Below are positions 643-39,575 of a DNA stretch of 41,454 nucleotides, piece after piece. This DNA is from Prevotella sp. (GTDB lineage: Bacteria; Bacteroidota; Bacteroidia; Bacteroidales; Bacteroidaceae). The stretch covers positions 1-41,454 of the forward strand of contig JAFVEE010000088.1 in assembly GCA_017478085.1 (NCBI GenBank). The letters are read 5' to 3'. The first letter of the stretch is position 1, and each line of letters opens with the position of its first letter. Both the position numbers and the translations under genes were made by a program. The notes beneath the pieces were generated by a model. It made no database searches and was not told the DNA's origin. It saw only the letters and a list, made by a program, of their open reading frames with translations.

Positions 643-2091
643 ATGACACCAATTTCAACTACTAAGATGAGCAACTTCCGTTGGGTCATCTGTGCGTTGC
701 TCTTTTTGGCAACCACCGTCAACTACATGGACCGTCAGGTCTTGTCATTAACCTGGAAGGACTTTATTGCTCCCGAGTTCCACTGGACTGATGCCGACTA
801 CGGCACAATCACGGGTCTCTTCTCTCTGTTCTATGCTATTGCCAACCTGTTTGCAGGTAAGTTCATCGATTGGATGGGCACCAAGAAGGGCTATCTCATT
901 GCTATCTTTGTGTGGTCTACAGGTGCTGTGCTGCACGCCGGTTGCGGCTGGGCAGCCATGCAGATTGAGGGTTATAGCTCAGTAGCTGAGCTTGGACAGC
1001 TCACTGGCGATGCTGCTGTGGCCATTGCAACTATTTCCGTCTATCTGTTCCTGTCCTGTCGTTTGATTCTTGCCGTTGGTGAGGCTGGCAACTTCCCTGC
1101 AGCCATCAAGGCTACGGCCGAGTATTTCCCCAAGAAAGACCGTGCTTTCAGCACCTCTATCTTTAATAGTGGTGCATCGGTAGGTGCGCTGGCAGCTCCC
1201 GCCACCATTCCCCTGCTGGCCCGTGCATGGGGCTGGGAGATGGCTTTCATCATCATCGGTGTGCTGGGCTACGTGTGGATGGGCCTGTGGATGTGGCTCT
1301 ATGAGAAGCCTCGTCAGAACAAGCGCGTGAATCAGGCTGAGCTGAACTACATTGAGCAGGACAACGACCTGGCCGATGTGCAGGATCGTGATGCCGTGAA
1401 GGAAGAGAAGGCCATCCCGTTCTTCAAGTGCTTTACCTACAAGCAGACGTGGGCTTTCCTCGTGGGCAAGTTTATGACCGACGGCGTGTGGTGGTTCTTC
1501 CTGTTCTGGGCTCCTGCTTATTTCAGCGATCAGTATGGTTATACCAGTGACTCAACGATGGGTATTCTGCTCATCTTCACCCTTTACTTCATTGTGACAG
1601 TACTCTCCATCGGTGGTGGCTATCTGCCAAAATACTTTGTGGAGAATCGTGGCATGAATCCTTATCTGGGTAGTATGCGTGCCATGCTCATCTTTGCCTG
1701 CTTCCCCGTTCTGGGTCTGTTGGCACAGCCCCTTGGTGCCTATAGCGCATGGTGGCCCGCCATTCTGATTGGTCTGCTCGGTGCCGGACACCAGGCTTGG
1801 AGTGCCAATCTGTTCTCTACCATCGGTGATATGTTCCCCAAGAGCACCATCGGCACCATCGTCGGTCTGGGCACTATGACGGGTGGCTTAGGCTCCATGG
1901 CCATCAACATGGGTTCGGGCCAGTTCTTCACCTGGGCTGCCGAGCAGGGCGCTGCCTTCTCGTTCTTCGGCTTCGAGGGCAAGCCCGCTGCCTATATGGT
2001 GGTGTTCTGCATCTGCGCCGTGGCCTACCTCATTGGCTGGTGCATCATGAAGGCACTTGTACCAAAGTACAAGCCCATCATCGTGGAGTAA
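643..2091 (+). CDS. MFS transporter, hexuronate (ExuT/ACS-like) family
   Basis: Inner-membrane major facilitator protein of 482 residues, likely a proton-coupled importer of hexuronates or related sugar acids. About twelve hydrophobic segments are visible. The first carries NYMDRQVLS and the loop between the second and third reads GKFIDWMGTKKG, matching the MFS loop motif; both are typical of the anion:cation symporter (ACS) group. It begins 10 bases after kduI on the same strand, so co-transcription and a role in uronate uptake are likely (inference from context). An in-frame ATG at 667 (MSNFRWV) is an alternative start that would remove eight residues. Substrate cannot be read from sequence; galacturonate, glucuronate or an unsaturated uronate are all possible. 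Confidence 0.85.
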   Translation: MTPISTTKMSNFRWVICALLFLATTVNYMDRQVLSLTWKDFIAPEFHWTDADYGTITGLFSLFYAIANLFAGKFIDWMGTKKGYLIAIFVWSTGAVLHAGCGWAAMQIEGYSSVAELGQLTGDAAVAIATISVYLFLSCRLILAVGEAGNFPAAIKATAEYFPKKDRAFSTSIFNSGASVGALAAPATIPLLARAWGWEMAFIIIGVLGYVWMGLWMWLYEKPRQNKRVNQAELNYIEQDNDLADVQDRDAVKEEKAIPFFKCFTYKQTWAFLVGKFMTDGVWWFFLFWAPAYFSDQYGYTSDSTMGILLIFTLYFIVTVLSIGGGYLPKYFVENRGMNPYLGSMRAMLIFACFPVLGLLAQPLGAYSAWWPAILIGLLGAGHQAWSANLFSTIGDMFPKSTIGTIVGLGTMTGGLGSMAINMGSGQFFTWAAEQGAAFSFFGFEGKPAAYMVVFCICAVAYLIGWCIMKALVPKYKPIIVE

Positions 2092-2110
2092 TCACTTAGT
2101 ACAGAATAGT

Positions 2111-2191
2111 AACGGAACACGAAGACACGAAGACACAAAGAGCTGCGCACTGAGTAGCAATCTTTGTGTCTTCGTGTCTTCGTGTTCCGTT
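2111..2191. repeat. Perfect 30-bp inverted repeat built of 8-bp units; putative bidirectional terminator
   Basis: Arms at 2111-2140 and 2162-2191 are exact reverse complements over 30 bases, separated by 21 bases. Each arm is itself made of near-identical 8-mers (ACACGAAG, ACACGAAG, ACACAAAG). It lies between the convergent transporter and the small secreted protein gene, so it could terminate both transcripts, but the perfect long arms and internal tandem structure look more like a dispersed repeat than a simple terminator. Confidence 0.8.
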
Positions 2192-2209
2192 AAATATATC
2201 CGTTAAATA

Positions 2210-2710
2210 TTAGTAGTCTTCGAGTGCCTTTTTCAGCCGTTCTTTTTCTCGTTCCTTGCGGCTGGTGCGCCACTTCTTGGGGATGATGTATTTCAGCAGG
2301 CCGAAAAGGTTGCCGTTGGGATTGGCCCCGATGAGCTGCGCATCGGTCTTGTTGAGGCCCAGCCTGCTGTTCAGGTCGGCCAACGGGTCTTCGCCAGTGG
2401 TGGCACCGAAGACCGTCACCTCGTCTAACTGTTGATAGTTGGGGTAGAGGGCCACCTTGTCTTCCAGATCGCTCACGTTGACGATGTAGCTCACGTAGTT
2501 GATGTGAGAGAACACCAGCGTCTTGCAGTCCTTGGGCAGGGAGAAGCGGCCCAGGGAGTCAGTCACGACGGTGAAGTCCTTGCCCGTGATGCTCACGTTG
2601 GCGATGGGACGCCCCGTGTCGCCATCGACTACCACCCGCTTCTTCTGTGCCGAAGCCGTCAGACAGCCTGCCAGCGCGATGGCTAAGAGTGCTATATGTT
2701 TGCTTTTCAT
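2210..2710 (-). CDS. Small secreted protein with carboxypeptidase-regulatory-like domain
   Basis: A 166-residue protein of unknown specific role. Residues 1-21 form a signal peptide (hydrophobic core LLAIALAG, then LTASAQ). Residues about 24-98 match the carboxypeptidase regulatory-like beta-sandwich common at the N terminus of Bacteroidota outer-membrane proteins: DGDTGRPIANVSITGK, then TDSLGRFSLP, and the LDEVTVFG ending that in TonB-dependent receptors leads into the plug. Here no plug or barrel follows; the protein ends in a strongly basic tail (KKWRTSRKEREKERLKK). It may be a free-standing adaptor of the envelope. A consensus promoter lies directly against the start codon, so the mRNA may lack a leader. 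The cysteine at position 16 lies inside the hydrophobic core and is not a convincing lipobox. Confidence 0.75.
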   Translation of the reverse strand: MKSKHIALLAIALAGCLTASAQKKRVVVDGDTGRPIANVSITGKDFTVVTDSLGRFSLPKDCKTLVFSHINYVSYIVNVSDLEDKVALYPNYQQLDEVTVFGATTGEDPLADLNSRLGLNKTDAQLIGANPNGNLFGLLKYIIPKKWRTSRKEREKERLKKALEDY

Positions 2711-2714
2711 GTTG

Positions 2715-2746
2715 CAAAAGTAGCCTTTTATGCAGGGCTGCCCAAA
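2715..2746 (-). promoter_or_regulatory. Promoter of the small secreted protein gene
   Basis: On the minus strand TTTG (2743-2746) and TACTTTTG (2715-2722) are separated by exactly 20 bases, matching the Bacteroidota consensus. The G of the -7 element is only five bases from the A of the start codon at 2710, so transcription should begin at or next to the ATG. Confidence 0.7.
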
Positions 2747-2862
2747 CTTTTTATACCACTTTAGCCAACGTTAGCAACCTTTTTCTTAAAAGTGTTTTTG
2801 AAAAGTGAAGGGATTGAAACGAGCCCCGAAGGGTTAAACTTTGTAAACAATCGAATGTTTAA

Positions 2863-2887
2863 TAGTACTTTGTATTGCAAGGTACTA
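2863..2887. promoter_or_regulatory. Candidate PadR operator
   Basis: Imperfect 25-bp palindrome with TAGTAC and GTACTA outer arms plus inner TTG/CAA. It overlaps the -33 element of the promoter serving the PadR-PspC operon. PadR-family operators typically carry GTAC-containing inverted repeats, so autorepression is the simple reading. Confidence 0.6.
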
Positions 2888-2905
2888 ATATTTTACCTAT
2901 CTTTG
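2874..2905 (+). promoter_or_regulatory. Promoter of the PadR-PspC operon
   Basis: ATTG at 2874-2877 and TATCTTTG at 2898-2905 are 20 bases apart, close to the Bacteroidota consensus. The start codon is 25 bases further on. The candidate PadR operator covers the upstream element. Confidence 0.6.
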
Positions 2906-2930
2906 CACCGTCAAACCAACAATTAGCGAT

Positions 2931-3281
2931 ATGGCAATGAATATTGAGAATGCAAAATCACAGATGCGCAAGGGCATGTTGGAGTACTGCGTGCTGCTGT
3001 TGCTGAAGCACCGGCCCTCGTATGCCAGCGACATCATTCAGCAGCTGAAGGATGCCGAGCTGCTGGTGGTGGAGGGTACGCTCTACCCCCTGCTGACCCG
3101 ACTGAAGAACGACGGCCTGCTGACCTACCAGTGGCAGGAGTCTACCCAGGGCCCGCCCCGTAAGTACTACGCACTGAGCCACGAAGGCGAGCAGTTCCTC
3201 GAAGGGCTCGACACCGCCTGGACCGAGCTGTCGAACACCATTAATTACTTAAAAAACACCCGTAAAGAATTTCACCTTTAA
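2931..3281 (+). CDS. PadR-family transcriptional regulator
   Basis: A 116-residue DNA-binding protein of the normal PadR length. The winged-helix fold spans roughly residues 12-90: a first helix MLEYCVLLLL, then GTLYPLLTRL (residues 49-58), the recognition-helix motif diagnostic of PadR, and the wing RKYYALSHEGEQFL. The C-terminal helix would provide dimerisation. It is followed after five bases by a PspC-domain membrane protein, a pairing common in Bacteroidota that suggests a regulator and its envelope-stress target. An imperfect palindrome with TAGTAC/GTACTA arms overlaps its promoter, consistent with autoregulation. The ligand or signal is unknown. An internal ATG two codons downstream is an equally possible start. 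Confidence 0.92.
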   Translation: MAMNIENAKSQMRKGMLEYCVLLLLKHRPSYASDIIQQLKDAELLVVEGTLYPLLTRLKNDGLLTYQWQESTQGPPRKYYALSHEGEQFLEGLDTAWTELSNTINYLKNTRKEFHL

Positions 3282-3286
3282 CCGTT

Positions 3287-4924
3287 ATGAAAAAGAACTT
3301 CACCATTAACCTGTGTGGCCGCCTCTATCAGATCGACGAGGATGCCTACGACATGCTGCAGCACTATATGGCTTCGCTGCACTCGTATTTTGGACCTCAG
3401 CCCGGGGGCGACGAGATAGCCAACGATATTGAGGAGCGTATTGCCGAGCTGTTCGACGAACTGAAACAGCAGGGCACGGTGGCCATCACCATCGACCACG
3501 TGAAGGACATCATCACCCGTATAGGCCGCCCCGAGCAGTTGGCCGGCGACGATGCCGAGCGTGCCGATGACGCTGGCTATACGAACGCTTCAGCCTCCTC
3601 CTCCGCTTCTTACGCCAAGCAGGGGCAGGCACCCAAGAAGCTCTACCGCAACCCCAACGACAAGATGGTGGCCGGTGTGCTCTCGGGTCTGGCTGCCTAT
3701 ACCGACACCGACGTCACCTTCTGGCGTCTGGGCACGGTGCTCTTCACCTTCTTTTATGGCACGGGCCTGTTGCTCTACATCGTGCTGGCCATCGTGCTGC
3801 CCCAGGCCAATACCCCCGAGGAACAGCTGCGCATGAAAGGGAAAGAGGTAAACCCTCAGAACCTGGCCGATGTCGTGGTCGATGACCAGCAGAAGCAGCC
3901 GTTGCAGACATCGGGCCTGCGCGAAGTGTTCTCCATCATCCTGAAGGTCATCATCGGCTTCTTCGTGGCCCTGGCCGTGGTCATTGGCGGCGCCCTGGCC
4001 ATTGCCTTCCTTGGCGTGCTGATGACCACCGTGTTTGCCCTGCTGATGCCTGCCTCGCACGCCGTGACCATGCCCTTCACCCTGGGCGGCATGGGGCTGG
4101 CCGACGTCTGGGCAGATCACCCCGCCATGCTGATAGGCTTCGTGGTGGCTTTGCTCACGGTGCTCTTTATTCCCGTCTATGCCATCGTACACATGGTGCT
4201 GTCGCTGCTCAAGAAGATCAAGCCGATGGGCGTGGCCCAGCGCATCGTGCTCATCGTGATCTGGATCATAGCCCTGTGCTGTCTCGTCCCGCTGGGTGGC
4301 AGTATCGGCGTGATGCACGACGAGTATGAGCGTGAGCACCGTGCCGAACGCCAGAACTGGATGAGCGACTTCGACCGTGACTATATGAAGCGAAATGGGT
4401 GGAAACTGCTGAAGCACGAGAACTGCCACGGCAGCTATTCCAGCAGTGGCGAGTACTTCCTGGGCAACGACAAGGCCTATCTAGATGCCTACGACAACAA
4501 CTGCATGGCCGTCTACCAGGTAGAGACCCAGCTGCTGCCAGCCGATTCGGGCTACTTCCGCATCAGCTGCAATGCCCGTGCCCAGGGCGAGGGCGTCTAC
4601 ATCTACGCTACGACTCCCTCGGCAGGCAACCGTCCGCTGGCCAAGACCATGGTGCCCGTCTATGGCAATACGGGCGGCAAGCTATGGGAGGAGGCCCGCG
4701 AGCAGCTGAACGACTCGGCGCTGGCACAGAGGGCCCGACTGATTCGCGAAGCCAACGATGGCCGGGGCTTTGGCTGGAGCCCCGTCGAGGTGTACGTGCG
4801 GCTGGAGCATGCCGACACGCTGTGCTACGGCGTTTCGACCGATCCCGCCTTCACGGGCGAGCCCTATAGCTCGGAGTGGTTCTCGGCCTGCGACTTCAAG
4901 GTAGAGAAGGTAGAGGAGAAGTAG
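3287..4924 (+). CDS. PspC-domain membrane protein
   Basis: A 545-residue inner-membrane protein. Residues 1-88 form a soluble N-terminal region (INLCGRLYQIDEDAYDML, then ANDIEERIAELFDELK) usual in Bacteroidota PspC proteins. A Ser/Ala-rich linker precedes the PspC domain at about 117-175 (KKLYRNPNDKMVAGVLSGLA, then one membrane segment). Further membrane segments lie near 213-256, 280-308 and 319-337, and residues about 345-545 form a large soluble C-terminal domain, presumably periplasmic. PspC domains take part in phage-shock or envelope-stress responses in other bacteria; a direct role here is inferred. Expression is probably controlled by the PadR protein encoded five bases upstream. The stop is only four bases from the convergent GH2 gene, with no terminator visible between. 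Confidence 0.88.
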   Translation: MKKNFTINLCGRLYQIDEDAYDMLQHYMASLHSYFGPQPGGDEIANDIEERIAELFDELKQQGTVAITIDHVKDIITRIGRPEQLAGDDAERADDAGYTNASASSSASYAKQGQAPKKLYRNPNDKMVAGVLSGLAAYTDTDVTFWRLGTVLFTFFYGTGLLLYIVLAIVLPQANTPEEQLRMKGKEVNPQNLADVVVDDQQKQPLQTSGLREVFSIILKVIIGFFVALAVVIGGALAIAFLGVLMTTVFALLMPASHAVTMPFTLGGMGLADVWADHPAMLIGFVVALLTVLFIPVYAIVHMVLSLLKKIKPMGVAQRIVLIVIWIIALCCLVPLGGSIGVMHDEYEREHRAERQNWMSDFDRDYMKRNGWKLLKHENCHGSYSSSGEYFLGNDKAYLDAYDNNCMAVYQVETQLLPADSGYFRISCNARAQGEGVYIYATTPSAGNRPLAKTMVPVYGNTGGKLWEEAREQLNDSALAQRARLIREANDGRGFGWSPVEVYVRLEHADTLCYGVSTDPAFTGEPYSSEWFSACDFKVEKVEEK

Positions 4925-4928
4925 CCTT

Positions 4929-7394
4929 TCAGGGCAACGGCCATTCGGCAGTTTGCAGGAAGGGGGCAGCGGCACGCAGGGTGAGCTGTCCCTCTTTTTG
5001 TGGCTCTATGTAGGCCACCAGGCGGCCGTTGTGCACGCGGAGCGTGTTCCTGCGCTGTCGACCGGCCACGGTGTTGTCGGAGATGTTGCCGTTCTCCATA
5101 CCCAGCAGACGTGCTCCGCGCACCGTCAGCGTCACCTCGTGGTCGGCCTGGCGCACCACGTTGCCATCCTCGTCGACCACCTCAACAAAGACGTGGGCCA
5201 CCGAGTCGGTGGATAGTCGCAGGGCGTAAGGAGCCTTGGTGGTCTTGATCTCGTAGGAGGCACCGTTGGCGGCTTCGCAGCGCAGCGTGCCCGGGGCATA
5301 GTCTACGTCCCAGTACAGAATATCGGTGTTGGCATCGCGCTTTGGCTCCCCGCCGATGGGCTGCCCGTTCAGCAGCAGCCGTGCCGAAGGGGCGTTGGTG
5401 TAGCACACCACGCGCACCGTCTGGCCCTCAGTGAAGTTCCAGCTATCGGGAGCATAGGGGTGGGGGGCTGAGAGGTTATAGGGCCTATGGGTCTCATGGG
5501 GCTCATATGGCCTATTGGTCCTATTAGCCCTATTGGTCCTATTTGGGCCATAGGCCCCAATATAGCAGGTGGGGAGCTCGCTCCACAGGGCCGCCCTGTA
5601 CCAGCCTAAGGGCTTGCGCTGGCCAGCCAGGTCGAGCAGGCCTGCCGACGAGCCGCGGGCCGGCCACACGCCGCTCTCGCCCAGATAGTCGATGCCCGTC
5701 CACAGGAACTGGCCGAAGATGTGCTGATGATCGCGCACCGCCTTCCACGCAGGCAGGTCGTGGCGGTTCTCCGAGCCATAGATCACGCGCCCGGGATAGC
5801 GCTGGTGGTCGCTGTCGTAGCGGCTCTCCGTGTAGTTATAGCCCACCACGTCGATGGCCGAGGGGTAGGCCGTCTCGTTCGACATCACCACGCCGGCCAG
5901 TGCACCGGTGGTGGGGCGGCTGGGGTCGATGTCCTTCACGATCTTGGCCAGCCGCTGGGCTATGCGGCCTATGCGCTCCGCATGGGGCTGTTCGGGCTTG
6001 TAGCCACCATACATAGGCTGGGTGAAGCCCGTGCCGTCGCCATCGAGCACAGGGTGCGAGTAGGGGTCGTTGGGATAGTCTACCTCGTTGCCAATGGACC
6101 ACATAAAGATGCTGGGGTGGCAGCGGTCGCGGCGCACCATGTCGGCCACGTCGCGGTCTATCCATTCCTCGAAATAGGTGTAGGTGCCCTCGAAGCCTGG
6201 ACGGCCTTGGTTCCAGCCCTTCATCCACTTGCGCTTGGGAAACTCCCACTCGTCGCTGGCCTCGTCCATGACGAGCATGCCCAGCTCGTCGCACAGGTCG
6301 TAGAGCTCCGGGGCGTGCGGGTTATGGCTCATGCGTATGGCGTTCACGCCGATGCGCTTCAGCTCCAGCAGGCGGCGGTGCCACACCTCCTTGGGCACGG
6401 CGGTGCCCAGCACGCCCGCATCGTCGTGCAGGCAGACGCCCTTCACCTTCATCCACTGGCCGTTCAGGGCGAAGCCTTTGTCGGGCGAGAAGTCGAGCGT
6501 GCGCAGTCCGGCGCGTACTACCGATTGGTCGCCATTTGACAGCCGGGTCGTGAGCGTGTAGAGATAGGGGCGCTCGAGCATCCAGCGTTGCGGGTTGGTC
6601 ACGGTGAGCTTCACCGTTTTCTTCTCCTGCGTTCCCATCTTGGTGCTGGCCGTTGCCACCGTTCTTCCCTCGGCATCGGTCAGCGTGACGGTAGCCGTAA
6701 GCGCGAGTGCTGACTTCGTGGTGCGCTCGTCGGCTGTTTCCACATCGACCTCGACCACGGCTTTCCGCTTGTCGATGCTCTTCAGCCGGTAGGCCGTTCC
6801 CCAGAGGGCCAGATGCACCTCGGGGGCGGTGATGAGCCACACATTGCGGTTGATGCCCGAACCGGTGTACCAGCGCGAGTCGGCTTCCTGCGAGTGGTCT
6901 ACCCGCACGGCCAGCACGTTCTGGCCCTCCTTATTATAATAAGGTGTCAGGTCGTAGAGGAACGAGGCAAAGCCGCTGGGGCGCTTGCCTAAGAGATGAC
7001 CATTCAGATAGACCTCGGAATGGTTGTAGACTCCCTCGAAGTAGATGAAGGTGAGAGACCCAACGGACCCACCCCCGGCCCCTCCCTCAGAGGGAGGGGA
7101 GTAGAGGGTCTTTCGATACCACCCAATGCCTCCTGGCAGATAGCCTTGGCACGAGCCCTTGTCGGGCGACATGGGCTGTTCCACGCCCCAGTCGTGGGGC
7201 AGGGCGACGGTGCGCCAGCGCGAATCGTCGTAGTCAGTGCTCTGCATCTCGGGGCTTTCAAACACGTTCCAGGCCGTGTCGACCCGCAGGAATCGCCAGC
7301 CGTCGTTCAGTTTCTCGGCCTTGCCAAAGGACACCTGGGCCTGCAAGGCTTGCACGGAAAAGAGGGCAAAAAGTGATAGTAGTAGTTCTCTCAT
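4929..7394 (-). CDS. Secreted glycoside hydrolase family 2 (beta-galactosidase-like) with in-frame repeat insertions
   Basis: An 821-residue exo-glycosidase, probably acting on beta-galactosides in the periplasm; substrate specificity is inferred only. Residues 1-19 are a signal peptide. The GH2 order is present: sugar-binding domain (GWYRKT, VYNHSEVYLNGHLLG, GSGINRNVWL), immunoglobulin-like domain, TIM barrel from about residue 300 (RMSHNPHAPELYDLCDE). Catalytic residues are the acid/base in SIGNEVDY (Glu437) and the nucleophile in YGSENRH (Glu542). Two segments look foreign: residues about 98-109, encoded by a GC-rich palindromic repeat (7068-7103), and residues 613-639, nine tripeptides encoded by nine 9-bp repeats (5478-5558). 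Neither disturbs the frame or catalytic residues. The gene lies downstream of the nitroreductase and protease genes, separated from them by a palindrome array. Confidence 0.92.
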   Translation of the reverse strand: MRELLLSLFALFSVQALQAQVSFGKAEKLNDGWRFLRVDTAWNVFESPEMQSTDYDDSRWRTVALPHDWGVEQPMSPDKGSCQGYLPGGIGWYRKTLYSPPSEGGAGGGSVGSLTFIYFEGVYNHSEVYLNGHLLGKRPSGFASFLYDLTPYYNKEGQNVLAVRVDHSQEADSRWYTGSGINRNVWLITAPEVHLALWGTAYRLKSIDKRKAVVEVDVETADERTTKSALALTATVTLTDAEGRTVATASTKMGTQEKKTVKLTVTNPQRWMLERPYLYTLTTRLSNGDQSVVRAGLRTLDFSPDKGFALNGQWMKVKGVCLHDDAGVLGTAVPKEVWHRRLLELKRIGVNAIRMSHNPHAPELYDLCDELGMLVMDEASDEWEFPKRKWMKGWNQGRPGFEGTYTYFEEWIDRDVADMVRRDRCHPSIFMWSIGNEVDYPNDPYSHPVLDGDGTGFTQPMYGGYKPEQPHAERIGRIAQRLAKIVKDIDPSRPTTGALAGVVMSNETAYPSAIDVVGYNYTESRYDSDHQRYPGRVIYGSENRHDLPAWKAVRDHQHIFGQFLWTGIDYLGESGVWPARGSSAGLLDLAGQRKPLGWYRAALWSELPTCYIGAYGPNRTNRANRTNRPYEPHETHRPYNLSAPHPYAPDSWNFTEGQTVRVVCYTNAPSARLLLNGQPIGGEPKRDANTDILYWDVDYAPGTLRCEAANGASYEIKTTKAPYALRLSTDSVAHVFVEVVDEDGNVVRQADHEVTLTVRGARLLGMENGNISDNTVAGRQRRNTLRVHNGRLVAYIEPQKEGQLTLRAAAPFLQTAEWPLP
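5478..5558 (-). repeat. Nine tandem 9-bp units inside the GH2 coding sequence
   Basis: Read on the plus strand the units are ATAGGGCCT, ATGGGTCTC, ATGGGGCTC, ATATGGCCT, ATTGGTCCT, ATTAGCCCT, ATTGGTCCT, ATTTGGGCC and ATAGGCCCC. Unit borders coincide with codon borders, so each encodes one tripeptide: GAY, GPN, RTN, RAN, RTN, RPY, EPH, ETH, RPY. The same 9-bp family occurs in gaps at 29165-29227 and 35489-35580. Confidence 0.9.
7068..7103 (-). repeat. GC-rich palindromic repeat inside the GH2 coding sequence
   Basis: Contains a perfect palindrome at 7079-7099 (arms CCCCTCCCTC and GAGGGAGGGG around a single A) beside an ACCCACCCCCGG stretch. On the coding strand it yields a Ser/Pro/Gly-rich segment (SPPSEGGAGGG) in a surface loop between two strands of the GH2 sugar-binding domain, where relatives usually have a short loop. 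It resembles the GC-rich palindromic repeats found in gaps of Bacteroidota genomes (from memory). Confidence 0.7.
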
Positions 7395-7421: not shown

Positions 7422-7525
7422 AATGGAGCGCTCCGTTGGGTTGCAACGAAGGCTCCGTTAGGATGCAATGGAGCCTCCATTGCGCCGTAACGGAGCCTTC
7501 GTTGTTAGTCAATGAAGCCTTGGTT
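7422..7525. repeat. Array of five 15-16-bp palindromes at 22-bp period
   Basis: Units start at 7422 (AATGGAGCGCTCCGTT), 7445 (AACGAAGGCTCCGTT), 7467 (AATGGAGCCTCCATT), 7489 (AACGGAGCCTTCGTT) and 7511 (AATGAAGCCTTGGTT, diverged). All are separated by 7-base spacers of differing sequence. Units at 7445 and 7489 are exact reverse complements, including a shared departure from the consensus. The last unit encodes the final residues of the nitroreductase, and its stop codon lies in the preceding spacer. The array fills the gap between the nitroreductase and GH2 genes. Confidence 0.9.
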
Positions 7526-20112: not shown

Positions 20113-20215
20113 AACGGAGGCTCCGTTCATCTTCAATGGAGCCTCCATTCAGACGTAACGGAGGCTCCATTGCAAGCGAATGGAGCCTCCGTTGTCTTCT
20201 AATCAAGCGTTCGTT
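20113..20215. repeat. Array of 15-bp palindromes at exact 22-bp period
   Basis: Units at 20113 (AACGGAGGCTCCGTT), 20135 (AATGGAGCCTCCATT), 20157 (AACGGAGGCTCCATT), 20179 (AATGGAGCCTCCGTT) and a diverged fifth at 20201 (AATCAAGCGTTCGTT). Spacers are always 7 bases and always different. The third and fourth units are exact reverse complements, giving a 15-bp stem with a 7-base loop. The array fills the gap between the 3' ends of two convergent genes. It is the same family as 7422-7525. Confidence 0.92.
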
Positions 20216-29157: not shown

Positions 29158-29164
29158 ATTGTTT

Positions 29165-29227
29165 ATTGGTCTTATTGGTCTTATTGGCCCTATGGGTCCT
29201 ATGAGTCCTATAGGCCTTGTTGGCCCT
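29165..29227 (-). repeat. Seven tandem 9-bp units between holB and the RicT gene
   Basis: Plus-strand units: ATTGGTCTT twice, ATTGGCCCT, ATGGGTCCT, ATGAGTCCT, ATAGGCCTT, GTTGGCCCT. The holB stop codon (29226-29228) lies in the last unit, and the first unit ends eight bases from the RicT start, so the array is the whole intercistronic region and would form the ribosome-entry leader of the downstream gene. Confidence 0.88.
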
Positions 29228-30326
29228 ATTTTTGTATCAGTAGCACGATCATTTGTAGTGCAAAGTCGAAGAACACGATCTTCGAGTTGGCGTTCTGCCC
29301 AATATCGCGGATGGCCTTGTTGGTCAGGTCGTAGATGGGCAGAATGTTGGCCTCGTTGACGAAGCGGGCGAAGTTGCGGGCGAAGTCCTCTTCCTTCTGC
29401 GTCATATACACCAGGTCGCTGTTGTGGAAGTTGTAGATGAAGTTCTCGCGCAGCATACGGAGGAAGAACATCAGGAAGCGGCGCTGCTTCTCGCGGCCAA
29501 AAGCGGCCATCGTGTCGCTCCACTTGCGCAGGTCTCTCACCTTGCGCTGGTAGGCCAGGCGCATCAGCATAATGAAGAGGTCCAGGAACTGCTCGTTCTC
29601 CGAGCCCACCTGCAGCTCTTCCAGTGCCTTCAGCCACGAGCCGTTGGCCAGGCGGGCTATGCGGTGGGCCTGCTCCTCGCTGATGCCGCGACGGCTCACG
29701 AGGGCCTGCTCGATGGCTTCGTTGCTAATCTTCTTCACATCAATGCGCTGCACGCGGCTGCGGATGGTCTCCAAGAGCTTGTCGGGTTCCTCGCATACCA
29801 TCAGGAACACCGTCTGCTGTGGCGGCTCCTCGATGAGCTTCAGCAGCTTGTTGGCACAGGCTATGTTCATGCGTTCTGGCAGCCAGATGACGCTTACCTT
29901 ATAGCCGCCCTGGCTCGACTTGAGACTGAGCTTGCGCACCAGGGCGTCGCTCTCGCCGGCGGTGATGATGGCCTGCTGGTTCTCGGCCCCGATGGCGTTC
30001 ATCCATTCGTCCATGCCGAAGTAGGGGCTCTGCATCAGCAGCTCGTGCCATTCCCGGGCGAAGTCATCGCTCGTCGGCATATGGTCGCTGCCCATCGACG
30101 GCAGCTTGATGGTGGGGTAGGTGAAGTGCAGGTCGGGATGCTCCAGCTTCTTCACCATGGCGTTGTCCTCGCCTAAGAGATAGGAAGCAAAGGCCACGGC
30201 CAGTGCCTTCTTGCCTACGCCCGTAGGGCCGCACAGCATGATGGCGTGTGGCAGACGGTCTTCCTTGACCATCTGCACCAGGCGCTCACGCACCTCTTCC
30301 TGACCTATGACCTCACTGAATGTCAC
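29226..30326 (-). CDS. holB: DNA polymerase III delta' subunit
   Basis: Clamp-loader AAA+ subunit. The 366 residues start MTFSEVIGQEEVRERLV (from a GTG codon), then HAIMLCGPTGVGKKALA with a Walker A at 33-40, SVIWLPERMNIACANKLLKL, the EEPPQQTVFLMVCEEPDKLL region preceding the sensor 1 segment, and SRVQRIDVKKIS. These are standard delta' features. No ATG lies at a reasonable position, so the GTG is accepted. The stop codon falls in the 9-bp repeat array downstream. It follows metF by 25 bases that contain a short AT-rich repeat. Confidence 0.93.
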   Translation of the reverse strand: MTFSEVIGQEEVRERLVQMVKEDRLPHAIMLCGPTGVGKKALAVAFASYLLGEDNAMVKKLEHPDLHFTYPTIKLPSMGSDHMPTSDDFAREWHELLMQSPYFGMDEWMNAIGAENQQAIITAGESDALVRKLSLKSSQGGYKVSVIWLPERMNIACANKLLKLIEEPPQQTVFLMVCEEPDKLLETIRSRVQRIDVKKISNEAIEQALVSRRGISEEQAHRIARLANGSWLKALEELQVGSENEQFLDLFIMLMRLAYQRKVRDLRKWSDTMAAFGREKQRRFLMFFLRMLRENFIYNFHNSDLVYMTQKEEDFARNFARFVNEANILPIYDLTNKAIRDIGQNANSKIVFFDFALQMIVLLIQK

Positions 30327-33970: not shown

Positions 33971-35479
33971 ATGATGAGCAAAAAGCTTTTTATCTTATTT
34001 TTCAGCCTGCTCTTCTGCTGTTCCTTCGTGCTTGCACAGGATGCGGCTAAGAGCGACCTGCAGCAGCGTGCCGAGACTGAGGATGCCAAAGGCAGCGTGG
34101 CCAGTGCCCGTTTCTTCTATATCCGTGCCTTCGAAGACTATGTAGGCAAGGGGCAGGCCCAGCAGGGAGTAGAGTGTGGTGTCAAGGCCACGGCATTGTA
34201 TTATAAGGAGAATCTCTACAAGGAGGCCTTCGACCTGCTGCGTCGCATCGACCAGAACATCGAGTCGGGTGGCCAGAAGACGGCTGCTGCCAAGGCGGCC
34301 CTTCACTACCTCACCACCAAGGAGCGCTTCCAGATGTATATGAAGATGCGCAAGGCGGCCAGCGTGGTCGACCAGCTCAACATTATGGAGAACTACGCCA
34401 ATGCCTCGGGCGACGAGAGCCTGAAGAACGACCTGCTCTACAACAAGACCATCTATTACTACACCTTCGGACTGAACGAGCGGGGCAATGCCACGTTCCG
34501 CGAAATGGCCAACAAGCTCACGGCCCAGAAGGAGTATAGCAAGGTCGACGAGGTCTACCAGACACTCATTGCCAACGGTCGTCGCAGCAACAATGCCAGC
34601 CTGGTGGCGCAGTCCTATAGCAGCTATATCGTTTGGAAGGATTCGGTGGCCGAGCTGAAGCGTGCCGACGAGATCGGGGCCTTGAAGCAGCAGATAGCCG
34701 ACAACGAGGCCGCCATCTCCGAGAAGGACAGCTCGCTCTCTGCCCGCTGGATGATCATCGTGGGACTTGGCATCCTGGCTGCCGCCCTGGCCGCTGCCCT
34801 GGCAGTGGGGGCCGTCGTGCTGCTGCGGTTCATCGTCCTCACGCGCAAGCAGAAGAAAACCATCAAGCTGGCCAACGAGAACAATGCGCTCAAGGCTAAG
34901 TTCATCAGCAATATCTCGGCTCAGTTGGATCCTACTCTTCAGAAGCTCGACAGCCGCACGCCTGAGGTGAAGGCCCTGCTCGACTTCTCCGACCATATCC
35001 AGACCTTGTCGAAGTTGGAGAACTCTACCGACGAGGTGGAGCTGGAAGAGACGCAGATGGCTCAGTTCTGCGACGAGCTGATGGAGAAGATTCGCAACCG
35101 CGTGAAGACGGGCGTCACGCTCACGGTCAATGCGCCGAAGATGAGCGCTAAGATCAATAAGGAGTATGTGTCGCACATCCTGCTGCACCTGCTGGACAAT
35201 GCCGCTGAGTACACGCCCGAGGGTGGCCATATCTCGCTGGAGTTCAAGAAGCGCGGTGCTCATAAGCACCAGTTCCTGGTGTCCGACACTGGTTGTGGCA
35301 TTCCTGAGGAGAAGCGCGAGGATGTGTTCAAGCCTTTCCTCGAGATTCGCGACCTCACCAAGGGCGATGGTCTGGGGCTTCCTATCTGCAAGCAGATGGC
35401 GCTGAAGATGAATGGCGACCTCGACATCGATCCTGCCTTCACCAAGGGCACGCGCTTCGTGCTCGACCTTCACGCTTAG
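33971..35479 (+). CDS. TPR sensor kinase-like protein lacking the phospho-acceptor histidine
   Basis: A 502-residue membrane protein: signal peptide (1-22), helical TPR-like sensor region (about 25-250), a transmembrane helix near 257-288 (WMIIVGLGILAAALAAALAV), and a kinase-type region. Where an H-box normally reads NISHELRTPL this protein has FISNISAQLDPTLQ, so the histidine is replaced by Ala317. The ATP-binding part is largely kept: HLLDNAAEYTPEGG (N-box), SDTGCGIP (G1), FKPF (F-box) and GDGLGLPI (G2). It may bind ATP and act as a phosphatase, a scaffold or a pseudokinase toward the receiver encoded upstream (inference). A second start two bases-triplets in (33974) is equally possible. 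A 9-bp repeat array follows. Confidence 0.85.
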   Translation: MMSKKLFILFFSLLFCCSFVLAQDAAKSDLQQRAETEDAKGSVASARFFYIRAFEDYVGKGQAQQGVECGVKATALYYKENLYKEAFDLLRRIDQNIESGGQKTAAAKAALHYLTTKERFQMYMKMRKAASVVDQLNIMENYANASGDESLKNDLLYNKTIYYYTFGLNERGNATFREMANKLTAQKEYSKVDEVYQTLIANGRRSNNASLVAQSYSSYIVWKDSVAELKRADEIGALKQQIADNEAAISEKDSSLSARWMIIVGLGILAAALAAALAVGAVVLLRFIVLTRKQKKTIKLANENNALKAKFISNISAQLDPTLQKLDSRTPEVKALLDFSDHIQTLSKLENSTDEVELEETQMAQFCDELMEKIRNRVKTGVTLTVNAPKMSAKINKEYVSHILLHLLDNAAEYTPEGGHISLEFKKRGAHKHQFLVSDTGCGIPEEKREDVFKPFLEIRDLTKGDGLGLPICKQMALKMNGDLDIDPAFTKGTRFVLDLHA

Positions 35480-35488
35480 TCTTAGTTT

Positions 35489-35580
35489 ATGGGGCTTATA
35501 GGGCTTATGTGCCTTATTGGCCCCATAAGCTTTCTATAAGCCCCATTGGTCTCATAAGCCTTATAGGCCCTATAGGAGTC
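35489..35580. repeat. Ten tandem 9-bp units between the kinase-like gene and recA
   Basis: Units include ATGGGGCTT, ATAGGGCTT, ATGTGCCTT, ATTGGCCCC, ATAAGCTTT, ATAAGCCCC, ATTGGTCTC, ATAAGCCTT, ATAGGCCCT, ATAGGAGTC. There is one 2-base slip (CT at 35534-35535). The array spans nearly the whole gap between two convergent genes, ending two bases before the recA stop. Consensus about ATWRGSCYT, the same family as 5478-5558 and 29165-29227. Confidence 0.88.
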
Positions 35581-35582
35581 TT

Positions 35583-36611
35583 TTACCCTTCGCTGCTCAG
35601 GTGCTCCATGATCTGGGCCTCCAGTTCTTCGCACAGCTCGGGGTTGTCATGCAGCAGCTGCTTGGTGGCATCGCGGCCTTGTGCCAGCTTCGAGTCCTGG
35701 TAGCTGAACCACGAGCCGCTCTTCTTGATGATGCCGAACTCCACGCCCAGGTCTACGATCTCGCCAATCTTCGAGATGCCCTCGCCGAAGAGAATCTCGA
35801 ACTCTGCCTTGCGGAAGGGAGGTGCCACCTTGTTCTTCACCACCTTCACGCGCACCTGGTTGCCAATCACGTTCTCGCCGTCCTTGATGGCCGTCACGCG
35901 GCGTATGTCTAAGCGCACCGAGGCGTAGAACTTCAGCGCGTTGCCGCCCGTGGTGGTCTCGGGGTTGCCGAACATAATGCCGATCTTCTCGCGCAGCTGG
36001 TTGATGAAGATGCACGTGGTGTTGGTCTTCGAGATGGTGCCCGTCAGCTTGCGCAGTGCCTGGCTCATCAGTCGGGCGTGCAGGCCCACGGCGCTGTCGC
36101 CCATATCGCCCTCTATCTCCTTCTTCGGCGTCAGGGCGGCCACCGAGTCTATCACGATGATGTCGATGGCGGCCGACCGTATCAGCTGGTCGGCAATCTC
36201 CAGTGCCTGCTCGCCGTTGTCGGGCTGCGAGATGTACAGGTTGTCCACGTCCACGCCCAGCTTCTGTGCGTAGAAGCGGTCGAAGGCGTGCTCCGCGTCG
36301 ATGAAGGCGGCGATGCCTCCTGATTTCTGGCACTCGGCAATGGCGTGTATGGCCAGTGTGGTCTTACCGCTCGATTCCGGGCCGTAGATCTCGATGATCC
36401 TGCCCTTCGGGTAGCCGCCCACGCCCAGTGCGGCGTTCAGGCCGATGGAGCCTGTGGGTATCACGTCTACGTTTTCTATCTGCTCGTCGCCCATCCGCAT
36501 GATGGAGCCTTTGCCGAAGTCCTTCTCGATCTTCGACATGGCTGCCTGCAGGGCTTTCATTTTCTCTTGTTGAGGGGTTAGCTGCTCCCCTTCCATTTCT
36601 TTTTTTGCCAT
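35583..36611 (-). CDS. recA: Recombinase RecA
   Basis: ATP-dependent strand-exchange protein for homologous recombination and repair. The 342 residues carry Walker A GPESSGKT (77-84), [15 protein letters not shown] (Walker B), the L1/L2 region with [27 protein letters not shown], and the C-terminal domain. Start at 36611 gives the usual MAKKE beginning. Upstream is not the normal tight gap but a stretch with the CCTAGG decamer array and a four-helix-bundle gene. No SOS-type operator was recognised in the leader. Confidence 0.98.
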
Positions 36612-36641
36612 AAGTGTTGTTTTTTTAGGGTTTATTTTTTT

Positions 36642-36751
36642 TCTAGGAGGGCCTAGGCGCTCCTAGGTTCTCCTAGGGGTGCCTAGGACTTCCTAGGGGC
36701 TCTTAGGCTGTCCTAGGTTTTCCTAGGCCCTCTTAGGGCTTCCTGTAGTCT
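36642..36751 (-). repeat. CCTAGG decamer array, recA side
   Basis: CCTAGG or one-base variants occur every 10 bases without slip at 36642, 36652, 36662, 36672, 36682, 36692, 36702, 36712, 36722, 36732, with a decayed unit at 36742. The four bases between cores vary. The array overlaps the last 12 residues and the stop codon of the four-helix-bundle gene. It is in the same orientation as the second array at 37389-37488, and both share the entry TAGGAGGGCCTAGGC. Confidence 0.92.
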
Positions 36752-37384
36752 TTTTCTTAGCTCCGCGTTTTCGGCTTTCAGGTGTTGGTTCTCGGCCTCC
36801 AGCGATTTTAGGCGGGCATCTACTTGCTGGCGATAGCCGGTGCGGGCAGCATACATGCGCTCCTTGATGCCACCCTCCGTTACGAAGCGATGCTCCAGCT
36901 TCTCTATGTAGGCACACATCATCTTGTCTGTTTGGTGACAAAGCGTCAGCAGCAAGTTGGCCATCTCCTCATCGTTCATCTTGGCGATCAGCGGAGCATA
37001 GTCGGAAAAGTCGTTATGGGTATGGCAGAACTCACGCAGCCTTCGCTGGCGCTCGTTCTTGGAAGACCAAAGGGAAAGGTGACGGGTGTTGATGTAGTCC
37101 TGGTAATCGGAGCGCAGCTCCTGCAGACTGCCCCGTGCCACGTTCAGCAGCTTGATCTCCATCTCCGAGCTGGTCTGTCCATCCTCGCTGCCCTCCACGA
37201 TGTTTTGCTTTCCGCTGCGGGCTGCCTGCACCATCTGGTCTACGGTGCGGTCGCCGTAGGGGGGCAGGAAGCGGTGGCAGAACTCCACCGTGAGCTGGTA
37301 GATGGCATCGGCCTTTCGGTAGAAGTAGAGGTCTTTCCATACTACTGCTTTTTTGAGCACCTTGCCTTTTGTGTCGTATTCCAT
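36713..37384 (-). CDS. Four-helix-bundle (S23/IVS-like) protein with C-terminal coiled coil
   Basis: A 223-residue protein of unknown function. Residues about 15-165 match the four-helix-bundle proteins first found in 23S rRNA intervening sequences and distantly related to the Avd accessory proteins of diversity-generating retroelements: LYFYRKADAIYQLTVEFCHR, RTVDQMVQAARSGKQNIVEG, SEMEIKLLNVARGSLQEL. Residues about 185-215 form a leucine-heptad coiled coil (LKSLEAENQHLKAENAELRK). The last 12 residues and the TAG stop come from the CCTAGG array; the start codon is a few bases from the second array. It sits between the Lys1-like gene and recA like an inserted cassette, with no promoter seen. 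A role in binding nucleic acid, perhaps the arrays themselves, is only a hypothesis. Confidence 0.8.
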   Translation of the reverse strand: MEYDTKGKVLKKAVVWKDLYFYRKADAIYQLTVEFCHRFLPPYGDRTVDQMVQAARSGKQNIVEGSEDGQTSSEMEIKLLNVARGSLQELRSDYQDYINTRHLSLWSSKNERQRRLREFCHTHNDFSDYAPLIAKMNDEEMANLLLTLCHQTDKMMCAYIEKLEHRFVTEGGIKERMYAARTGYRQQVDARLKSLEAENQHLKAENAELRKRLQEALRGPRKT

Positions 37385-37388
37385 TGCT

Positions 37389-37488
37389 TTTAGGTTTTTT
37401 AGGAGGGCCTAGGCAGTCCTAGGATTTCCTAGGGGTTCCTAGGCTGTCATAGGGGTTCCTAGGGGTTCCTAGGCCCTCCTAGGTTTTT
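37389..37488 (-). repeat. CCTAGG decamer array, Lys1-like gene side
   Basis: Cores every 10 bases: decayed units at 37389 and 37399, then CCTAGG at 37409, 37419, 37429, 37439, CATAGG at 37449, CCTAGG at 37459, 37469, 37479. The last unit touches the TAA stop of the Lys1-like gene (37487-37489). Same orientation and similar first and last units as the array at 36642-36751, so the two are direct repeats about 0.75 kb apart. Confidence 0.92.
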
Positions 37489-38722
37489 ATAACTCCAAGT
37501 CCCCATCAAAGATCTCGTGCCAGGGCAGGCCCTGCTTGTTCAGCTGCTCCATGAAGGGGTCGGGGTCGAACTCCTCTACGTTGAAGACGCCGGGTTTCCG
37601 CCATAGACCCTTGCAGAACATCATGGCACCGATCATGGCCGGCACGCCCGTGGTGTAGCTCACACCCTGCATGCCCGTCTCCTCGTAGGCGGCGCGGTGC
37701 GAGCAGTTGTTGTAGACGTAGTACGTGTGCTCCTTGCCGTCCTTCAGGCCGCGTATGCGACAGCCTATCGAGGTCTGGCCCTCGTAGTTCTCGCCCAGGT
37801 CCTGCGGGTTGGGCAGCACGGCCTTCAGGAACTGCAGGGGCACGATCTTCACCCGCGCCGTGCCGCTGCCGTCGGCCAGCGGAGCCTCGTACTCCACCTC
37901 GTCTATGCGGCTCATGCCTATGTTCTGTATCACCTCCAGGTGCTTCAGGTACTGCTGACCGAACGTCATCCAGAAGCGGGCCCGTTTGATGGTGGGATAG
38001 TTGATGACCAGGCTCTCTATCTCCTCGTGGTGCAGCAGATAGCTGTCGCGCGGCCCTATCTCGGGATAGTTCAGGTCCTTGTGAATCTCCAGCGGCTCGG
38101 TCTCGACCCACTGGCCGTTCTCCCAGTAGAGGCCCTTCTGCGTAATCTCGCGGATGTTGATCTCGGGGTTGAAGTTCGTGGCGAAGGCCTTGTGATGGTC
38201 GCCTGCGTTGCAGTCCACGATGTCTAAGTACTGAATCTCGTCGAAGTGGTGCTTGGCGGCGTAGGCGGTGAAGATGCTCGTCACGCCCGGGTCGAAACCG
38301 CAGCCCAGGATAGCCGTCAGCCCTGCCTCGCGGAAGCGGTCGCGGTAGGCCCATTGCCACGAGTACTCGAAGTGGGCCTCGTCCTTCGGCTCATAGTTGG
38401 CCGTGTCTAAGTAGTTGCACCCGCAGGCCAGACAGGCCTCCATGATGGTCAGGTCCTGATAGGGTAGGGCCAGGTTGATGACCAGCTCGGGCTTGTAGTC
38501 CGAGAAGAGGGCTTTCAGCTGCTCCACGTCGTCGGCGTCTACCTGTGCCGTTTTGATGGGCATGTCGTAGCCCTTCTGGTGGATGGCCTCCACCAGTGCG
38601 TCGCACTTTGCCTTTCTGCGGCTGGCAATCATAAACTCCGTAAACACGTCGGCATTCTGCACAATCTTGAATGCCGCCACCGTTGCGACGCCACCGGCGC
38701 CGATCATTAGTATTCTGCTCAT
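37487..38722 (-). CDS. Saccharopine-dehydrogenase-like protein (carboxynorspermidine dehydrogenase type)
   Basis: A 411-residue NAD(P)-dependent dehydrogenase. The Rossmann motif GAGGVATV (residues 8-15) opens the protein; VINLALPYQDLTIMEACLA and GFDPGVTSIFTAYAAKHHF are characteristic of the Lys1-like group that makes carboxynorspermidine or carboxyspermidine in the alternative polyamine pathway of gut Bacteroidota. That function fits better than lysine metabolism, but no nspC decarboxylase gene is adjacent to confirm it. The mscS stop lies four bases upstream, implying co-transcription. The gene is followed directly by the CCTAGG array. Confidence 0.85.
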   Translation of the reverse strand: MSRILMIGAGGVATVAAFKIVQNADVFTEFMIASRRKAKCDALVEAIHQKGYDMPIKTAQVDADDVEQLKALFSDYKPELVINLALPYQDLTIMEACLACGCNYLDTANYEPKDEAHFEYSWQWAYRDRFREAGLTAILGCGFDPGVTSIFTAYAAKHHFDEIQYLDIVDCNAGDHHKAFATNFNPEINIREITQKGLYWENGQWVETEPLEIHKDLNYPEIGPRDSYLLHHEEIESLVINYPTIKRARFWMTFGQQYLKHLEVIQNIGMSRIDEVEYEAPLADGSGTARVKIVPLQFLKAVLPNPQDLGENYEGQTSIGCRIRGLKDGKEHTYYVYNNCSHRAAYEETGMQGVSYTTGVPAMIGAMMFCKGLWRKPGVFNVEEFDPDPFMEQLNKQGLPWHEIFDGDLEL

Positions 38723-38726
38723 AGTA

Positions 38727-39575
38727 TTATTTGTTGATAATGTTCACATCCATGCGGTTGAAGGGGAACATGAAGCCGCGCTCCTTCAGCGTCTGGTACA
38801 CCGTCTCGTTCATATATCCGGCCACCGTCCAGTAGTCGCTGCCCTTGCACCACTGGCGCGTCGTGGCCACGCAGCCGCTGTCGCCCAGTTTTGTCAGGCC
38901 TATCCACGGGGCGGCCACCACTTCGCTGTCGCTCACGGGGCCTTGCAGGATCAGCTCGTTCTTCTGCTGAATCTCGCGGATGGCGGCCTTCACGGCGTCA
39001 AGGTCGGCCCCGTAGGCAAACTGGAAGTCCAGGTCCACGCGCCGGTACGGCTCCTTCGTCGAGTTCTTCATCGTGCCGGTCGACAGTCCGCCGTTCGGTA
39101 TGATGATGATCTGTGCGTCGTTCGTGCGGATGATGGTGTTGAAGATCTGTATCTCCTTCACCGTGCCGCTATAGCCCTGTGCCTCGATGAAGTCGCCCAC
39201 CTTGAAGGGCTTGAACAGCAGGATCATCACGCCGCCTGCGAAGTTCTGCAGCGTGCCGCTCAGGGCCATGCCGATGGCCACGCCGGCCGAGGCGAACAGG
39301 GCGATGAACGACGAGGTCTCGATGCCGAAGATGCCCACGATCACGATGGCCAGCAGGAACCACGCCACCACGTTCACGATGCTCGTCAGGAAGGTGTAGA
39401 GCGATTTGTCCACCTTGCTCTTCTCCAGCATCTTGGTGATGAGGCGGATGCCCCACTTGATGACCCAGCTGCCAATGAAGTACACGATGGCGGCCACGAT
39501 GAGGTTCTTGCAGAACCCTACTGCCCACTGGCCTACCAGCGAGTAGGTCTCGGGCGAAAAGATTTTCTCTAACAT
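38727..39575 (-). CDS. Small-conductance mechanosensitive channel, MscS family
   Basis: A 282-residue inner-membrane channel that opens under membrane tension to release solutes in osmotic downshock. Three N-terminal membrane helices are visible (FCKNLIVAAIVYFIGSWVI, IVNVVAWFLLAIVIVGIFG, and the pore helix ASAGVAIGMALSGTLQNFAG rich in Gly and Ala), followed by the beta domain (FKPFKVGDFIEAQGYSGTVK, TIIRTNDAQIIIIPNG) and the C-terminal alpha/beta domain. Length matches E. coli MscS. It starts 12 bases after the upstream unknown gene and ends four bases before the Lys1-like start. Confidence 0.94.
   Translation of the reverse strand: MLEKIFSPETYSLVGQWAVGFCKNLIVAAIVYFIGSWVIKWGIRLITKMLEKSKVDKSLYTFLTSIVNVVAWFLLAIVIVGIFGIETSSFIALFASAGVAIGMALSGTLQNFAGGVMILLFKPFKVGDFIEAQGYSGTVKEIQIFNTIIRTNDAQIIIIPNGGLSTGTMKNSTKEPYRRVDLDFQFAYGADLDAVKAAIREIQQKNELILQGPVSDSEVVAAPWIGLTKLGDSGCVATTRQWCKGSDYWTVAGYMNETVYQTLKERGFMFPFNRMDVNIINK

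Follow-up and report, generated by a model that had tools for sequence, protein, structure and literature searches.

A four-helix-bundle gene between matching short-period repeat arrays in Prevotella: a candidate small mobile element

Introduction

RAYT genes are flanked by REPs. As far as the available parts of the sources describe it, this system ('REPtron', TnpA-REP) ties a protein gene to multicopy short palindromic intergenic repeats, the RAYT being an HuH-type endonuclease and the REPs palindromes of 20–40 bp. In Coxiella, the intervening sequence (IVS) of 23S rRNA holds an S23p open reading frame (ORF), has complementary ends and is processed by RNase III, and S23p/IVP proteins are described as being without known function (PMC4990558, in the sections available). 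Here we analyse a 41,454-nucleotide stretch of DNA from Prevotella sp. (assembly GCA_017478085.1, contig JAFVEE010000088.1, positions 1 to 41,454; hereafter the window), in which a gene for a four-helix-bundle protein of the S23p/IVP superfamily lies between two arrays of the core CCTAGG, repeated every 10 bp. The gene and its two arrays are probably one small mobile element of an undescribed family, whose protein would recognise its own array.

Cyanobacterial STRRs are heptamers such as CCCCAAT, and Avd of diversity-generating retroelements has the same broad fold as the four-helix proteins considered here. Arrays of the heptamer TAACTGA occur in Beggiatoaceae, Cyanobacteria and Bacteroidetes; of their horizontal transmission, the available text states that 'no mechanism is evident' (MacGregor 2015, PMC4679880).

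By profile, the window protein probably falls into the superfamily of the IVS proteins (TIGR02436, 35.9 bits; profile A1 finds XCC0516), and its element shares with the IVS a repeat-bordered protein gene and a sporadic distribution (PMC4990558, in the sections available). Unlike the IVS, it lies outside rRNA, between the protein genes recA and a dehydrogenase; elements of its type have a 49-residue suffix domain, and their fixed-period arrays, also found alone, contrast with the single near-perfect stem of the IVS. As in REP/RAYT systems, genes of the window type are flanked by their own repeat family, with solo repeats elsewhere, but the window protein matches no HuH/Y1 transposase or nuclease family, and the arrays are made of a 5–6-bp core at an 8–10-bp period. 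With TAACTGA arrays, STRRs and long simple sequence repeats they have in common short units, intergenic arrays and an occurrence in Cyanobacteria and Bacteroidetes among others; unlike those, the arrays described here border S23p genes, and the available text of PMC4679880 contains none of the terms 'S23', 'four helix' and 'four-helix'. An earlier note on this DNA had pointed to diversity-generating retroelements. This link found no support: the window protein has no match to bAvd (PF22296) up to E 1 in a Pfam search, and the reverse transcriptase family RVT_1, matched in 3 of 14 control genomes, has no match in the element's own genome (76.6% complete). By these features the window element is not an IVS, a REP/RAYT system or a retroelement, although it somewhat resembles the first two in how it works. 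In the open-licence literature searched, no paper was found that links four-helix genes to flanking arrays.

A four-helix-bundle gene bracketed by two arrays

The locus consists of five features:

36713–37384, minus strand: four-helix-bundle gene, 223 aa, with a TIGR04258 suffix domain and a C-terminal leucine-heptad tail (ORF, NCBIfam; tail read from the sequence).
36643–36744, no strand: 3′ array, about 10 units of CCTAGGNNNN at period 10; gives the gene's last residues and stop, and as a single strand folds back on itself.
37398–37487, no strand: 5′ array, about 9 units of CCTAGGNNNN at period 10, with the core of the 3′ array; lies between the gene start and the stop of the upstream gene.
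37487–38722, minus strand: host gene with saccharopine-dehydrogenase domains, nearest to carboxynorspermidine synthase (ORF, Pfam, NCBIfam).
35583–36611, minus strand: recA, the second host gene flanking the insertion (ORF, named from its sequence).

Two CCTAGG arrays of 10-bp period around a single gene were what the earlier note had described, and both the core positions and Tandem Repeats Finder (rows 36643–36744 and 37408–37487) bear it out. The cores start at 36652 in the 3′ array and at 37408 in the 5′ array, keep an exact 10-bp period and are separated by variable 4-base spacers. Variant units are interspersed among the exact cores, and the entry TAGGAGGGCCTAGGC is common to both arrays. 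All 14 exact copies of CCTAGG in the window lie inside the arrays, seven in each. The note had found their abundance striking, which holds for the spacing and not for the raw count: shuffled sequence gives a mean of 8.6, with at least 14 in 3 of 100 shuffles, whereas two cores spaced as CCTAGG-N4-CCTAGG are found 42 times genome-wide and the reversed pattern never. The signal is therefore the 10-bp spacing, not the number of cores. In the own genome (178 contigs) there are nine such arrays on eight contigs. As the note had also read from the sequence, one array supplies the gene end, the TAG stop lying inside a core of the 3′ array, and the other reaches the stop of the dehydrogenase-like gene.

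The proposed four-helix-bundle identity was upheld by profile searches. The window protein scores 77.1 bits against TIGR04258 (cut-off 40), which places it in the suffix family, and 35.9 bits against the four-helix core model TIGR02436 of NCBIfam (cut-off 24); Pfam PF05635 gives 29.6 bits, below its cut-off of 33.8. The best named relatives are 74–83% identical and come from uncultured Bacteroidales, Bacteroidaceae and Prevotella assemblies. No transposase or nuclease family is among its Pfam and NCBIfam matches, the PADLOC anti-phage defence models gave 0 families for the 4 proteins submitted, and no Rfam family reached the gathering threshold in 35400–38900. The neighbour that the note had named Lys1-like does carry saccharopine-dehydrogenase domains; its nearest model, however, is carboxynorspermidine synthase, at 403 bits and below that model's 800-bit cut-off.

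Gene and arrays were inserted as a unit

We compared the recA gap with that of relatives. Of 60 genomes surveyed, 58 have a recA match; the comparison used 30 loci with flanks, in which gaps were measured between protein alignments. The dehydrogenase gene adjoins recA in 26 of the 30 loci, the own locus included, and the gap of 879 bp in the window compares with 19–105 bp in 18 of the 25 other neighbour loci, in keeping with the proposed cassette between two host genes. Among the remaining seven gaps, three hold a suffix-less PF05635 gene (107–124 bits), one a radical-SAM gene, one a gene just below the TfoX_N cut-off (28.8 vs 30.1) and one a gene that resembles the latter by look; the seventh, of 229 bp, has no identified gene. 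The suffix-family profile had missed the suffix-less genes of two loci (L324, L330), which were found by reading and Pfam. The earlier note had suggested that, in strains without the gene, recA and the dehydrogenase gene might become neighbours and one array might remain. They are close neighbours there, and 3 of the 18 short gaps (genomes G022, G007, G032) do hold a solo array, of period 8 and ATAACG type in two and of period 9 in one, not CCTAGG decamers. With its differing genes and arrays, the same gap has therefore received different elements in different species.

A second case comes from the own genome, which has one further TIGR04258 gene, bracketed by arrays of a different decamer, TGGGA. 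On the contig's plus strand, its 3′ flank has six TGGGA units; the 5′ flank has sixteen, and behind these come ten exact TCCCA units, inverted. Two copies in one genome with CCTAGG and TGGGA arrays were thus a first sign of protein-specific repeats. The second copy sits between pepD and corA, which are neighbours in 15 of 30 loci surveyed. With gene and arrays the gap measures 1,095 bp; of the other 14 gaps, 13 measure 138–483 bp and one 924 bp. No four-helix gene was matched by profile in these 14 gaps, and the two longest have no four-helix ORF on reading. The window gene and the TGGGA copy are both missing from the corresponding gaps of relatives, so that gene and arrays together were inserted, as one unit in these two cases. 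By eye, the pepD–corA gaps of L411 and L414 have inverted arrays without a gene between them (of about 8 bp in L411, of heptamers in L414), like gene-less S23p derivatives.

Arrays accompany the gene across the family

Of the 150 genomes of the genus, the own one among them, 83 have TIGR04258, as do 41 of 296 from a sample across the phylum; the 14 control genomes have none. Its 223 profile matches were reduced to 212 genes by a filter on profile coverage and length, and their surroundings were scanned for a 5-base core at fixed period, up to 6.5 kb on each side as far as the loci reach. Arrays of period 8–10 are concentrated within 500 bp of the 212 genes, at densities of 11.0 and 13.5 per 10 kb on the two sides, against 0–1.2 per 10 kb in all other 500-bp bins to 6 kb. 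No match was obtained in 1,844 kb of dinucleotide shuffles.

For counts per gene, we took the 194 genes with at least 400 bp on both sides and scored arrays within 500 bp; two pairs among the loci (L036/L137 and L045/L145) are apparently the same contigs entered twice. At periods 7–12, 153 of the 194 genes have an array, 60 of them on both sides. At periods 8–10, the count is 152 (58 on both sides), compared with 40 among 381 other small genes at these loci (6 on both sides; 152 vs 40, p ~5e-61). Homologues of the window gene are thus commonly flanked, as the earlier note would have it, mostly by repeats other than its decamer, at a period of 8, 9 or 10. For genes with palindromic cores, plain local alignment of the upstream against the downstream flank is weak, with 36/101 direct and 24/101 inverted scores above the 95% null. 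The branch of the family that ends in a zinc finger was considered as a negative control and dropped, having its own arrays in 17 of 18 genes, at period 8 in 13 of them.

In six loci (L031, L044, L058, L063, L072, L079), nine-base arrays are translated into protein ends, giving low-complexity tails of NQNNQS or PTP type. Arrays read into protein ends may be an accidental source of such tails.

Core and period follow the protein lineage

Cores vary between genes and include CCTAGG, TGGGA, CTATAG, ACTAGT, TCTAGA, TCCGGA, TCWGA, ATARG, ATGGG, GTGGG, TAAAG and ATAACG, among others. Within a gene they agree. Where arrays stand on both sides, the period is the same in 57 of 62 genes (shuffle mean 32.8, maximum 44), and among these 57 same-period pairs the mean core similarity is 0.89, against 0.52 when permuted within period (maximum 0.59 of 500).

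Both properties were then mapped on a tree of 209 proteins (3 identical ones left out), on which 163 could be scored for period and 143 for a named core. Period requires 12 changes on this tree, against a mean of 38.0 for shuffled labels (minimum 34 of 200), and core requires 34, against 101.3 (minimum 95). The branch of the window protein has period 10 and nearly always the core CCTAGG, with ACCTA in L052; in the branch whose proteins end in a C4 zinc finger, period 8 predominates (13/18 genes) and the cores are ATAACG-like. A single protein of the latter branch was searched in Pfam and matched the topoisomerase DNA-binding zinc ribbon (38.6 bits, cut-off 32). Array core and period co-diversify with the protein lineage. 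Invariant and near-invariant residues of the proteins cluster in DRTxDQMxQAARSxKQNIxEG and in GG[IF]xERMxxARxxYR of the suffix.

Three further ideas were rejected. The earlier note had seen in the 10-bp period a helical turn that would put every core on the same DNA face; as a general rule this is ruled out by relatives at period 8 or 9. An association of coiled-coil tails with palindromic cores has a raw p of 0.003 and a median p of 0.69 over phylogenetically independent pairs, the coil rule missing some coils. A purine-to-pyrimidine trend along arrays was unsupported in the five cores tested.

Solo arrays and their folding

Three consecutive CCTAGG units occur in 21 of the 150 genomes. With the gene's own flanks subtracted, solo CCTAGG arrays are found in 7 of 8 genomes that have the window's branch and in 13 of 142 that do not (p 1.9e-6), and triples of CTATAG outside gene flanks in 6 of 9 genomes that carry their cognate branch and 20 of 141 others (p 9e-4); one genome (G127) has an identical duplicate, for which the branch label is corrected in the first count and uncorrected in the second. 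Solo CCTAGG arrays are thus far more frequent where the cognate branch is present, and the 13 genomes without it speak against a tight tie between array and protein of the kind that the earlier note had drawn. CTATAG triples number up to 109 in one genome. Near the own genome's seven CCTAGG arrays outside the window, four-helix profiles find no gene in the respective loci.

Around solo arrays, genes were called with a simple longest-ORF caller. Of 51 arrays classified, 8 lie inside a called ORF, none of them of CCTAGG type. The 29 CCTAGG-type arrays (as classed by script) outside called genes lie between tandem genes in 18 cases, convergent in 8 and divergent in 2, with 1 at a contig end; the intergenic gaps of the same loci are 58 tandem, 21 convergent and 24 divergent. 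Plain slippage does not account for the arrays, as their spacers vary and adjacent units are barely alike (1.69 vs 1.24 of 4 bases).

Several loci show arrays in company. Genome G008 (contig C21; L247 and L089) has several CCTAGG arrays within about 4 kb, together with arrays of period 8 and 9. In G119:C84 (L244), two CCTAGG arrays about 2 kb apart lie in 1896–4011, with no four-helix profile match in the locus. The window itself has arrays of period ~9 with TATAGG/CTTAT/CCTATTGG-like cores at 35480–35590 (seen by eye; on the far side of recA), 29163–29230 and 5511–5543. They resemble the ATARG and CTATAG types of other members, and neither TIGR04258 gene of the own, incomplete assembly has such a core. 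At 7430–7482 and 20138–20194, 22-bp tandem repeats (GCTCCGTTG.../GGAGCCTCC...) look like a further array family, with a lookalike at L019:14060.

Most arrays can fold back. As RNA, 162 of 225 gene-flanking arrays reach a fold z of −2 or lower, against 19 of 208 control segments. Each window array closes on itself, with z of −4.66 (DNA) and −5.15 (RNA) for the 3′ array and −6.01 and −6.87 for the 5′ array. Ten arrays were folded in more detail; z ≤ −2 was reached by seven of them in the DNA fold and by eight in the RNA fold, and not by L052 and L053. Beside some arrays with asymmetric cores there is an inverted partner array, for example in L018 and L030.

Suffix-less relatives mostly have inverted arrays

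The wider superfamily was sampled with TIGR02436 in twenty genomes, 16 of which had matches; 28 suffix-less genes were fetched, 23 of them with full flanks. Considered as a control, they were mostly negative in the fixed-core scan (8/28 with a match nearby), yet alignment revealed inverted arrays. Between the two flanks of the 23 genes, the median inverted score is 24.5, against 8.5 between different genes, and the direct score 8.5 against 8.0. Over the 99% null lie 1/23 inverted and 5/23 direct scores, the inverted null being inflated by genes that share an array type. Their best period is mostly 7 or 8, and 10–12 in a few. One suffix-less relative has a weak bAvd match (20.2 bits, cut-off 40).

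On plasmids, 34 records had a relative and 18 were fetched: 16 from Cyanobacteria (nine Nostoc), one from Bernardetia and one from Treponema. The inverted-flank median is 28.5 against 9.0, with 13/18 above the 95% null; three of the records (L343, L345, L346) look like one insertion in related plasmids. Many of the repeats are heptamers, such as AATTCGC/GCGAATT and TTCGTAA/TTACGAA, and L355 has CCCCAAT units. We propose, without proof, that many heptamer-type repeats are the ends or remains of S23p elements. On three cyanobacterial plasmids (L351, L353, L356), S23p genes lie between or beside CRISPR genes (cas2/cas1, csx2/cas1), with inverted-flank scores of 12.5, 29.5 and 16.5.

Discussion

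We consider it probable, on comparisons of sequence, that the window gene and its two arrays form one small mobile element whose protein recognises its own array. Each member of the family would consist of an S23p/IVP-superfamily four-helix protein with fixed-period, short-core arrays at its ends, of period 8, 9 or 10 bp in the TIGR04258 group and mostly 7–8, sometimes 10–12, in the suffix-less relatives. Several results weigh against this. The fixed-core detector finds no array at 41 of the 194 genes, and among the phylum-sample genes it finds one in 6 of 23, lower than in the genus; alignment reveals short inverted arrays at some of the latter. Arrays with asymmetric cores do not fold alone (TGGGA: median z 0.10, z ≤ −2 in 2/18). 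Of the 29 genomes with CTATAG triples, 8 (G035, G038, G077, G085, G104, G115, G121, G140) have no TIGR04258 match. At the recA site no target duplication is readable, the relatives being too divergent. Finally, spacer likeness among the own genome's nine CCTAGG arrays is at chance (best 13/16, where the null maximum averages 12.5). The arrays are therefore not recent copies of one another, and their cores have been either kept by selection or rewritten; the cores look maintained and not freshly spread.

How might such an element work? The cores may be bound cooperatively, probably through the suffix helix (GG[IF]xERMxxARxxYR) with the help of the zinc finger or coiled-coil tail, either in duplex DNA or in the fold-back form that most arrays can adopt. 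The suffix helix would read the core, and the period would be set by the spacing of protomers. The best match of profile A1 is XCC0516 (PDB 2gsc, E 0.0026), which we take to be the same protein as the homopentameric S23p of Xanthomonas campestris. Because of this match and because the X. campestris protein is described as a homopentamer (PMC4990558, in the sections available), the four-helix core is expected to oligomerise. Recognition would couple protein and array during movement. By coating or folding its array, the protein could bring the host's replication, repair or RNA processing to make copies of the element. It has no recognisable nuclease or transposase domain, and so the host's own machinery for replication, recombination or RNA processing would have to supply the strand chemistry. 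Solo arrays would then be gene-less derivatives, spread in trans or left by recombination between two direct arrays, as with solo long terminal repeats.

An immobile, vertically inherited regulator, with the arrays beside its own gene and those dispersed between other genes as operators through which it controls transcription ends or chromosome structure, would fit the retention of cores while spacers drift, as in selected binding sites, and the placement of solo CCTAGG arrays, which abut gene ends and rarely lie between divergent genes. It is an unlikely explanation, however: the cassette is missing from the same gap in relatives at both recA and pepD–corA, species differ in the array types and S23p genes that occupy the recA gap, and core and period turn over within one genus. 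The inverted arrays around suffix-less relatives, in this genus and on plasmids, the folding of most arrays as RNA and the Coxiella IVS, with its S23p ORF, complementary ends and RNase III processing (PMC4990558, in the sections available), would instead suit an element acting at the RNA level like the 23S rRNA IVS, in which the arrays pair into stems in the transcript, with the gene inside or next to the loop; RNase III would excise the element, and the protein would bind the stem. This too we hold to be improbable. Each window array folds alone, and a palindromic core leaves orientation undefined; solo arrays are scattered in the genome, one branch member has a DNA-binding zinc ribbon, and RNA processing alone cannot account for insertion.

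The arrays might also have come first, as ordinary short tandem repeats that spread alone and then served as landing or recombination sites for the four-helix gene. Arrays without genes, including those in genomes without the protein and the solo arrays in the recA gap of G022, G007 and G032, agree with this order of events. A generic landing site, though, leaves unexplained why core and period track the protein tree and why paired arrays match, and the spacers differ between units, adjacent ones being only slightly alike; we regard this origin as very improbable.

The reading of gene and arrays as a mobile element can be carried further. The whole S23p/IVP superfamily might consist of mobile elements that lack a recognisable transposase and bear end arrays specific to their protein, with the 8–10-bp arrays of Bacteroidales, the cyanobacterial and TAACTGA-type heptamers and the stems of rRNA intervening sequences as their ends or gene-less derivatives, each written by its own protein lineage. 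This extension is tentative, and in our view a little less likely than not.

Short intergenic arrays are widespread in bacteria and mostly unexplained. If it is true that one protein family travels with and recognises such arrays, two open questions would become one testable system, and the way in which protein lineage, core and period vary together would offer naturally occurring data from which to decipher a new code of nucleic-acid recognition. With no nuclease or transposase recognisable, the mode of movement would be new, and what looks like a hitherto unnoticed family of bacterial mobile elements may account for a number of long-standing puzzles about repeated DNA.

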